A stretch of 64,000 nt of DNA from Opitutales bacterium (GTDB lineage Bacteria; Verrucomicrobiota; Verrucomicrobiia; Opitutales; Oceanipulchritudinaceae): positions 1-64,000 of the forward strand of contig SLNJ01000059.1 of the NCBI GenBank assembly GCA_007133065.1. Direction: 5' to 3'. Each line of letters begins with the position of its first letter. Position 1 is the stretch's first letter. The notes under the pieces were generated by a model. The model was not told where the DNA came from, ran no database searches, and saw nothing but the letters and a program-made list of their open reading frames with translations. Made by a program: the position numbers and the translations under genes. Positions 23,426 through 28,288 of the stretch are shown here, in pieces.

Positions 23426-23971
23426 TCAGATCAACCCGAGTTCCATCTTCCCCTCCTCGGAGATCATATCCTGGTGCCAGGGCGGGTCCCAGACAATGTC
23501 GACGTTCGCCTCGTGCACGCCGGGCACGCCTTCGACCTTGAACTTAGCGTCCTGCGCGATGGCCGGTCCCATACCGCAACCCGGCGCGGTCAGGGTCATA
23601 TCCACCTGAACGACGTATCTCCCGTCATCCCGTTCCCGGACCACCATGTTGTAGACGAGACCGAGGTCGACAATGTTCACGGGGATCTCGGGATCGTAGA
23701 CGCTCTTCAAGGCGTCCCAGATCGCCTCATCGCTCGGAGGCCCGGCATGATCGTCATCGGCTGCCTGCGGGCGCTCCTGCTTCTCCTCGCCGATCGCATC
23801 CCCGTGCTCGCCGGAAATTTGCGCCATTCCACGCTCCCACAGTAGCGTGAAATTCCCGCCGAGCCGGTGCGTGATCGTCACCTTACTCCCTTCCGGTATC
23901 GTTATCGGGTCTCCATAGGGGACAATTGTTGCGGGAATATCCCGCGCTGCAATGCGGTCGTTGTCAGACAT
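23426..23971 (-). CDS. sufT: SufT, DUF59-type iron-sulfur assembly factor
   Basis: Accessory protein for maturing Fe-S proteins, 181 residues. The N-terminal part ([20 protein letters not shown]-like) matches the long SufT form. Residues about 80-175 are the DUF59 (MIP18-like) domain, with [16 protein letters not shown] and the conserved Cys in LTAPGCGMG. The start ATG lies one base after the sufD stop. It is the last gene of the operon. Confidence 0.88.
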
Positions 23972-23972
23972 T

Positions 23973-25328
23973 CTAGTTGCGGAATTTGTTCTGCACCAGC
24001 TCCCGAACAAAGTCGGAGAGCTCGTCGTTGTCGAAACGGGAAACGATTTCCTCGAAAAATCCAAATACAATCAGCTCCTCCGCCATCCGGCGCGGAATCC
24101 CGCGCGAGAGGAAGTAGAAAATGTTGGTGTCGTCGATGCTCCCGGTTGTCGCTCCGTGGCTGCATTTGACGTCATTCGCCGCGATCTGGAGCCCGGGGAG
24201 CGAATTCGCCTCCGCGGTGTCAGAGAGAAGGAGATTGCGGTTGGTCTGGTAGGCGTCGGTCTGCTGTGCGACCTCGTCGACGCGGATCAACCCCGAGAAA
24301 ATAGTTCGGGCATCATCAAGGAGCGCATTCTTGAAAAGCAGATCGCTGTGCCCGTTCGGCGCGGAGTGGGTCTGCAGGGTTCGTTGATCGATCTCCTGCG
24401 TTCCTTTCGCAACGGTCAGCGAGTCGGTATCGACACTGGCGCCGGCACCGAGAATGCGGCAGTGCTGCTCGTTGCGCGTATGAGCGGATCCGAGATTCAC
24501 GGTTATGCTCTTCAGTGCGGCATCCCGTTCAGCGCTGGCGGAATTCAGGTGAAACGCCACCGTGTTGAGATTCCAGTTCTGCACCGTTTCGTAATGGACG
24601 TGCGAACCGGCACCGGCATAGACGTCGCTCACGCCGCAAACAAAATGCCGGGTACCCGGATCGACGGATTGGAACAGGTCGAGGACGGTGGCGCGGGCGT
24701 TGTCCCCCACAACCACAAGGGTGTGCGGAAACAATGCGGTGCCGTCGTCCAATCCGCTCCAATGCACCGTGATAAACGGCTCGGCGATCTCGACGTTTGC
24801 AGGCACATAGAGAAACGTGCCGTTGTGGAAAAGTGCGGCGTGGAGAGATTCGTATTTCTGTGAACCGATGCCGGGCAGGCGGGTCAGCAGATGCTCGCGC
24901 ACAAGCTCCGGGTACTCGCGGAGCGCCTCGTCCATCGGACAGTAGATAACGCCTTGTTCCCGGAGTGTATCCGGAAGCCTCGGCGCTTCGACCAGCGCGT
25001 CGTCGTGAAAGACCATCCGCGCGGAGGCGTTGCGGATGGCATCGAACGATGGAACACCCGCGGACGAATCCCCGGCAACCACCGGCAAGCGGAAGCTGTC
25101 CAACGCAAGATCCTGGACACTGGCGAAGCGCCACTGCTCATCTTTGCGGTGCGGCGCAGGGAGGCGCTGAAAGCGTTCCCACGCGTCCTGTTTCAGCTTA
25201 TGAATCCACGGTGCGGCCCAACCGAAACCGGACAGGCATTCCTGAAACACGGAGCTGCTGCCGAGACCGGCATCCGCAACCTCGGGTTGATTCCGATCAA
25301 GGCTCATGAGATTTGATTCTGGAGACAT
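23973..25328 (-). CDS. sufD: Fe-S cluster assembly protein SufD
   Basis: Scaffold partner of SufB in the SufBC2D complex, 451 residues. The N-terminal part is variable. The beta-helix core shows [20 protein letters not shown]. The C-terminus carries [20 protein letters not shown] and [20 protein letters not shown], which are SufD hallmarks. Two starts are possible (25328 and 25307), neither with a strong Shine-Dalgarno; the longer is kept. Confidence 0.9.
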
Positions 25329-25379: not shown

Positions 25380-26813
<1,434 letters not shown>

Positions 26814-26884: not shown

Positions 26885-27649
26885 TCAGCCGGCCTCGGCC
26901 GGCGTTAGCTCGGACTTCAACCAATCGTAGCCCTTCTCTTCCAACTCGAGCGCCAGCGACTTGCCGCCCGTTTTGACGATGCGGCCCTCGTGCATCACAT
27001 GCACCTTGTCGGGCACGATGTAGTTGAGAAGACGCTGATAGTGGGTGATCACGAGAAATCCAATGTTCGGACCGCGCATGGCATTCACTCCCTCGGCCAC
27101 GATGCGCAGCGCGTCGATGTCCAGCCCGGAGTCCGTTTCATCCATGACCGCAAAACTCGGCTTCAGCACCGACATCTGCAGGATCTCGCAGCGTTTCTTC
27201 TCCCCGCCGGAGAACCCCTCGTTCACCGGACGGCTGGTGAAGCTCCGATCGATCTTCAGTTCGTCCATGGCCCGGTAAAGCTCCTTGTAGAAGGCGGGCG
27301 CCTTTAAGGTCTCGCCTTCCGGAAGTCGCGCGGTGAGCGCCGCCCGCAGGAAGTTTGCGATCGAAACACCGGGAATCTCGCTCGGATACTGGAAAGCCAT
27401 GAAAAGCCCCGCACGCGCGGTCTCATCCGGCTCCATACCAACGATATCACGGCCATCGAGCAGCGCTTCGCCACGCGTGATCTCATAGTCCTCGTGGCCG
27501 GCCAGCGCCTTCGCAAGCGAGCTCTTCCCAGCTCCGTTGGGCCCCATCAGGGCGTGAACTTCGCCCTTGGGCACGGTCAGAGAGAAGTCGTTGATGACAT
27601 CGTTCCCCGCCACCCTGACGCTCAGGTTCTTAATCTCGAGTGCACTCAT
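26885..27649 (-). CDS. sufC: Fe-S assembly ATPase SufC
   Basis: Soluble ABC-type ATPase that drives SufBCD, 254 residues. Walker A GPNGAGKS is at 36-43, the signature is [14 protein letters not shown] and Walker B is [12 protein letters not shown]. The start at 27649 overlaps the stop of the Fur-like gene as ATGA, so the regulator and SufC are translationally coupled. The longer frame would extend into the regulator gene. Confidence 0.93.
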
Positions 27650-28164
27650 CTGGATCGGTTCTGTTTGGTTTGATTGTTGGGTTGATCGATATGCTCCCAA
27701 ACGGTGGATGCAGAGGAGTTGGATTGCCGTTCCGCCGCTTCCGGCTCCACCCGCCCGGAAAAACTCAGTTTGATTTTGTTCGCTGCAAATCCTTTCGGAA
27801 GGATCGTTGTCAGTGTCTCGTGAAAGTCTTTCGGGATATCGATGTCGAAAACCCGGCCGGTCGCCTCATCCAGAAAATGCGCATGCTCCCCGTGGTTGGG
27901 GCAATACCGGCTCGGTTCCCGTTCGTAGTTGAGTTTCTTGATCAGATCGCACTCAACCAACGTCTCGAGGCAATTGTAGACCGTCGCCAGCGAAATGGTC
28001 GACAGCTGCTTCCGCGCCCGCGCAAACACCTCCTCCGCCGTCGGATGGTCCCGCTGCGACACCAGTACGCCAAAAACCTGCTCGCGTTGTCGAGTCGCAC
28101 GCAAGCCGGATCGCTCCAGCGCAGCAGTCAGGTTTTTCCTGTCTCTCTCAGTGATTTGTCGCAT
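27646..28164 (-). CDS. Fur-family regulator heading the suf operon
   Basis: A 172-residue winged-helix regulator. The DNA-binding part is [23 protein letters not shown] and the recognition helix [12 protein letters not shown]. The dimer domain keeps His91, His94 and His96 (NHGEHAHF). The CxxC pair that normally follows (HxHxxCxxCG) reads Asp99 and Thr102, and no second CxxC exists, so the structural zinc site is lost. About 30 C-terminal residues are rich in Ser, Asn and Gln. ATG 28164 is preceded by AGGA at a good distance; a TTG seven codons upstream is less likely. Its place ahead of sufC suggests it controls Fe-S assembly in response to iron, peroxide or cluster status. Confidence 0.88.
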
Positions 28165-28185
28165 CGTTCCTAGCATTCGAAGCAA

Positions 28186-28213
28186 ACGATACTTGGAATT
28201 ATTCCAAATTCAA
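28186..28213 (-). promoter_or_regulatory. candidate suf promoter with a Fur-type 7-1-7 operator
   Basis: On the minus strand TTGAAT (28208-28213) and TATCGT (28186-28191) are 16 bases apart. The spacer is filled by TTGGAATnATTCCAA (28193-28207), a perfect palindrome with 7-base arms around one base. This is the geometry of Fur/PerR boxes. Binding here would block RNA polymerase, so autoregulation of the operon by its own regulator is likely. Confidence 0.65.
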
Positions 28214-28288
28214 GGATTTTTTGAGATTTGTATTCATTCTAATTTTATCTTCTTGATAATAAGGAGAATCTGAGCGAACCGCCGCTTG

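Follow-up and report, generated by a model that had tools for sequence, protein, structure and literature searches.

Introduction

IscR, RirA and SufR are iron-sulfur proteins of the Rrf2 family or ArsR-like. In R. sphaeroides, the gene heading a cluster-assembly operon encodes IscR and is autoregulated (PMC4618611), which resembles the arrangement proposed here, but the regulator encoded in our locus belongs to the Fur family. Within that family, Irr of the alphaproteobacteria acts on suf as well as on genes for iron export and storage through operators of the TTAGAA-N3-TTCTAA type, and in R. sphaeroides it binds TTAGAAATATTCTAGA at the suf promoter (PMC6956336). PerR, known from Bacillus, Listeria, Campylobacter and Leptospira, recognizes a box with the consensus TTATAATnATTATAA (PMC545781). 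Its regulatory metal is liganded by His37, Asp85, His91, His93 and Asp104, of which Asp104 governs access of H2O2, while Fur has Glu at this position (PMC4866751). In Zur, Cys84 replaces Asp85 of PerR and an equivalent of His37 is missing (PMC4866751). A literature search covering open-licence papers retrieved no description of SUF control in Verrucomicrobiota, neither by a Fur-type protein nor otherwise. Here we analyze a palindrome in front of a fur-suf operon in the window, i.e. the whole 64-kb stretch of DNA under study.

Organization of the fur-suf operon and its promoter

The palindrome TTGGAATTATTCCAA comprises two perfect 7-nt arms around a single central base (TTGGAAT-T-ATTCCAA). It is located in a minus-strand promoter, whose 16-nt spacer between the hexamers TTGAAT and TATCGT is taken up by the 15-bp palindrome and a single G. 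The start codon of the first gene (ATG at 28164) follows 21 bases past the -10 box and has AGGA in front of it. The features of the locus are as follows:

28208..28213, minus strand: putative -35 hexamer TTGAAT; TTG kept in same-family relatives
28193..28207, no strand assigned: predicted operator, a variant of the clade motif TTRGAATnATTCYAA (sequence and conservation)
28186..28191, minus strand: putative -10 hexamer TATCGT (weak match, inferred)
28168..28171, minus strand: ribosome-binding site AGGA (sequence)
27646..28164, minus strand: Fur-family regulator of 172 aa with the site H40-C88-H94-H96-D107 and no CxxC structural zinc site (profiles, alignment, model)
27646..27649, minus strand: ATGA overlap of the regulator stop and sufC start codons (sequence)
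26885..27649, minus strand: sufC, ATPase (TIGR01978, 335 bits versus a cut-off of 212.8)
25380..26813, minus strand: sufB (TIGR01980, 618 bits)
23973..25328, minus strand: sufD (TIGR01981, 252 bits)
23426..23971, minus strand: sufT (TIGR03406, 222 bits)

All four Suf proteins score above the curated profile cut-offs, and the ATGA overlap couples the regulator gene translationally to sufC. Sequence and profiles thus agree with the initial annotation, which had described a perfect palindrome in the -35/-10 spacer of a Fur-family gene heading sufC-sufB-sufD-sufT. Both hexamers are weak, with about 4/6 consensus matches each, and the fur-suf promoter at 28186-28213 was not among the promoters listed by a sigma-70 consensus scan. 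In every same-family relative that has the site (14/14), TTG is found 6-7 nt before it, so the position in the spacer is common to the window's family.

Outside this family the operator does not keep this place in the promoter. At Limisphaerales-type loci it is located directly 5' of a clear TTGACA -35 box, and in some Opitutaceae both promoter positions hold a site, the two being separated by 29-30 bp (L173, L174, L245). Tandem operators with the same distance also precede fur-suf in L049, L051, L054 and L065, and in L256, L257 and L260 two sites are 76-77 bp apart. A partial site at 28228-28242 of the window was considered as a second tandem operator and rejected, as it has three mismatches to the palindrome and a spacing of 35 bp versus 29-30 bp in the true tandems.

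Conservation of the palindromic site

Palindromy by itself is poor evidence, because the 64-kb window has ten perfect 7-1-7 palindromes and shuffling the AT-rich intergenic stretch produces one in 1.1% of cases. A genome-wide search for the word TTGGAATTATTCCAA returned a single exact copy in the 3.68-Mb genome. Upstream of fur-suf homologues, the motif TTRGAATnATTCYAA is matched exactly in 61 of 93 cases and with no more than one mismatch in 85 of 93, a level reached by only 0.04% of shuffles. The arms of the motif mirror each other, with A or G at position 3, as expected for the site of a dimer. A protein search retrieved relatives of the regulator from Verrucomicrobiota, with one record labelled otherwise, and in nearly all of them suf genes adjoin the regulator gene. 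The site is thus kept before the same operon across much of Verrucomicrobiota.

The arms had been taken to indicate a distinct specificity. They do differ from the PerR consensus and from Fur boxes, and the site conforms to the clade motif rather than to TTATAATnATTATAA. However, TTGGAAT is one variant of TTRGAATnATTCYAA, and this motif is near the Irr box: TTAGAAATATTCTAGA deviates from it by two mismatches, which places the motif among ICE/Irr-type operators. Since Irr also controls suf, the specificity is not new in kind. A match to a cyanobacterial PerR box was considered as well and dropped as unsupported; the paper found gives no consensus for Slr1738.

The regulator and its metal site

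Membership of the first-gene product in the Fur superfamily is indicated by PF01475 (80.7 bits, cut-off 23.1). Its AlphaFold2 model (pLDDT 83) displays the Fur fold with a winged-helix and a dimerisation domain, and the top Foldseek matches are all Fur-family proteins (best E 3e-10), the nearest structures being of PerR, Fur and Mur type. The 7-1-7 layout of the predicted operator likewise fits the superfamily. Among the profile models it is closest to PerR and Irr, yet below every one of their cut-offs; the NCBIfam Irr and IrrA models gave 65.8 of 170 and 68.4 of 150 bits, respectively. PerR is both its best profile neighbour and its neighbour among solved structures.

The ligand set H40, C88, H94, H96 and D107 is invariant at each position in 93/93 homologues. 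H40, H94, H96 and D107 are the equivalents of His37, His91, His93 and Asp104 of PerR, whereas Asp85 is replaced by Cys88, so that the regulatory site is PerR-like apart from one Zur-like residue. In a tree of 57 sequences, the Cys is the mark of one clade of 33 (support 92/93), every member of which has H-C-H-H-D, with a single D/E-to-C change on the tree; the outgroups mostly have Asp or Glu at this position. Which Fur subfamily is sister to the clade was not settled by the tree, in which deep forks are weak and branches long. The two structural CxxC zinc pairs of PerR are absent from the window protein as well as from Opitutales-type and Akkermansia-type homologues and present in Limisphaerales-type proteins.

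Judged by the sequence features tested, the regulator is a member of the Fur superfamily but not PerR, Zur, Fur or Irr. It is set apart from PerR by the lack of Asp85 and by the different box; suf is moreover its main predicted target, although dps, the peroxiredoxin, the P-type ATPase and fur are targets of PerR type. It differs from Zur, with which it shares the Cys, in keeping the His37 equivalent, and no zinc genes were recognised among its predicted targets. Fur of E. coli has Glu in place of D107, and Irr is disfavoured by scores below cut-off. Two IrrA sequences furthermore have Asp at the Cys88 position, and an autoregulator of suf encoded by the adjoining gene is not the Irr arrangement. 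It probably acts in the manner of PerR or Irr.

The genome contains three further Fur-family genes. In another Fur paralogue (C66:51587-51946, L003) the regulatory ligands are lost (H-L/V-Q/R-Q-E, e.g. TEQAQVLCLDC). The same degenerate-site paralogue is found in L030, L033, L035, L037, L038 and L043, and its sequence suggests a metal-independent or re-purposed Fur.

Genomic distribution of the motif and predicted targets

The search for exact sites covered samples of 17 family, 141 class and 226 order genomes. Each genome has between zero and four of them, and a control with the reversed pattern was almost empty in all three samples. The samples overlap, and deduplication by context of the sites retrieved left 117 distinct exact sites, which include related genomes and hence are not independent. 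Of these, 75 precede this fur gene, counting one (L183) whose neighbour at 2-3 bp is a canonical Fur gene not accompanied by suf. Further suf-linked sites belong to sufS (two), sufD and sufB (one each).

At eight loci from two families (L012 in the own genome, L160, L161, L261, L263, L280, L281, L285) the exact site is located 7-9 bp before the start of a P1B-type ATPase of the heavy-metal type. In the own genome it lies at C95:88352-88366, between an MntR-type gene and the ATPase gene. An SPC motif is shared by this ATPase and FrvA of Listeria, a P-type ATPase under PerR control (PMC3283593). Five loci, again from two families, have the site roughly 120-270 bp before a gene for a sigma-70-family factor (RpoD/RpoS-like; L130, L131, L132, L134, L284). 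Single cases among the recognised targets are dps, a peroxiredoxin and glutamate synthase (gltB). No target was recognised for 22 of the 117 sites, several of which lie within coding sequence.

Some contexts deserve separate mention. In the own genome, an exact site is present at C102:28885-28899 (L006) between a glutaredoxin-like gene and the gene for the large subunit of glutamate synthase. At two sufS loci (L250, L278) and one sufD locus (L167) the apparent ATG and the operator overlap, ATGATTCTAA being read as Met-Ile-Leu, and the true start of these genes may be further downstream. In one family (L246, L247, L248, L277) an exact site occurs shortly 5' of a gene for a small secreted protein with an LDITLPGNS-type start.

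Among the 141 class genomes, with orthologues called at E <= 1e-28, the exact motif is present in 43 of 87 genomes with an orthologue of the regulator and in 6 of 54 without one (Fisher p = 1.5e-6, a value that ignores shared ancestry). At the sites of the latter six genomes no suf gene was seen. The remaining 44 of the 87 genomes have no exact site, and a 195-genome sample of the phylum yielded no strong orthologues beyond the class. Akkermansia-type loci (L223, L224, L242) retain the C88 regulator and its linkage to suf, and the consensus operator is absent from them. In Akkermansia-type genomes and L179-L182, the exact motif instead precedes a gene that is UvrA-like or encodes a peroxiredoxin; the UvrA-adjacent sites were set aside, as the fur-suf promoter there is without consensus site. 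No consensus site was detected where the Cys position is occupied by Glu (L233, a suf-linked relative) or by Asp (relatives L234-L238).

A model for control of the suf operon

From the site and its conservation, the operon linkage, the co-occurrence with the orthologue and the invariant ligand set, we infer binding, repression, metal and signal. The palindrome is probably the operator of an autoregulated fur-sufCBDT operon, bound by the metal-loaded product of the first gene and derepressed by iron loss or peroxide. A dimer of this protein, loaded most likely with Fe2+, would bind TTRGAATnATTCYAA in the -35/-10 spacer and thereby exclude RNA polymerase, occlusion being the natural reading in the window's family because the operator is in the spacer. 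The operator would be freed when iron is lost or when peroxide oxidizes the Fe site. D107 would be the PerR-type residue permitting such oxidation, and the C88 thiolate would supply a second reactive ligand. A shortage of clusters, or damage to them, would consequently raise the levels of regulator and SUF machinery in parallel. In relatives, control by this regulator appears to extend to sufS and to the genes for a P1B metal exporter and a sigma factor, perhaps also to dps and the peroxiredoxin gene.

Autoregulation of a Fe-S assembly operon, as initially proposed, is strongly supported by conservation, by the ATGA coupling, by the spacer position and by the separate sites at sufS and sufD in relatives. 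The targets resembling PerR and Irr regulons speak for the autorepressor as well. Against it count Cys88, otherwise typical of Zur, the Akkermansia-type loci without consensus operator and the 44 orthologue-bearing genomes without an exact site, as does the representation of dps, the peroxiredoxin and gltB by one site each. The sign of regulation is less certain in other groups; where the operator lies just upstream of -35, as in Limisphaerales-type loci, activation is also possible.

Alternative explanations

The main rival is Irr-type logic, in which the protein would be active at low iron or heme, then repress suf, iron export and iron storage, and be inactivated or degraded by excess of heme or iron. 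We consider this unlikely. It predicts targets similar to those of a metal-loaded repressor. The operator is near the box bound by Irr at the R. sphaeroides suf promoter. Irr of Bradyrhizobium, which disappears in response to iron or H2O2, represses sufA, bfr and the iron exporter gene mbfA (PMC4902296), and Brucella Irr binds the promoter of a P-type ATPase (PMC10374146). Irr models are among the best sub-threshold profile matches, an HxH is present, and residues 88-89 are Cys-Pro. However, the scores are far under the cut-offs (65.8 versus 170 bits), the sequence has no N-terminal heme regulatory motif, the tree gives no well-supported grouping of the regulator with Irr, and an invariant full five-ligand site fits activation by metal. 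Cys88-Pro89 itself was rejected as a heme regulatory motif: D-P-N with Pro is found in other relatives, so the Pro probably derives from this common sequence and need not reflect heme binding.

That Cys88 makes the regulator Zur-like in function, the operon answering to zinc, is much less probable. Such a role would fit the Cys that Zur has in place of Asp85 of PerR (PMC4866751) and the heavy-metal type of the P1B ATPases bearing the site, but His40, which has no counterpart in Zur, is invariant, the protein gives no match to the Zur model PRK11639, and no zinc uptake gene was recognised among the exact-site targets, with 22 of 117 sites unassigned. Equally slim are the chances that the site is real but bound by another regulator, e.g. 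a second Fur paralogue. The three other Fur-family genes and the canonical Fur gene adjacent to the exact site at L183 (2-3 bp) would provide candidates, whereas the site tracks the suf-linked orthologue and sits in the orthologue's own promoter, and the metal site of the C66 paralogue is degenerate (H-L-Q-Q-E). A chance palindrome in an AT-rich intergenic stretch, to which the ten palindromes of the window might point, is ruled out by conservation upstream of homologues across orders, together with orthologue co-occurrence and coherent targets.

Discussion

An autoregulated fur-sufCBDT operon remains the preferred reading, and the Cys in the regulatory site of its first-gene product is a more unusual feature than the operator. 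It had been missed by the initial annotation, as had the further targets. We tentatively raise the possibility, short of favouring it, that the regulator represents a separate class of Fur-family sensors, which would have arisen once in Verrucomicrobiota via an Asp-to-Cys change. Thiolate-ligated iron, or heme or an Fe-S cluster on Cys88, might then read cluster demand or sulfur/peroxide stress, and the protein would be a dedicated SUF autoregulator in the role played elsewhere by IscR, RirA or SufR.

The analysis proposes a regulator for SUF control in Verrucomicrobiota, among them gut Akkermansia-type lineages, together with its operator motif and predicted targets. Cys88 is a single residue whose role is directly testable. 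If the model holds true, control of cluster assembly by a Fur-family protein would be added to the known solutions, and the regulator may offer a natural example of one ligand swap retuning a metal sensor.
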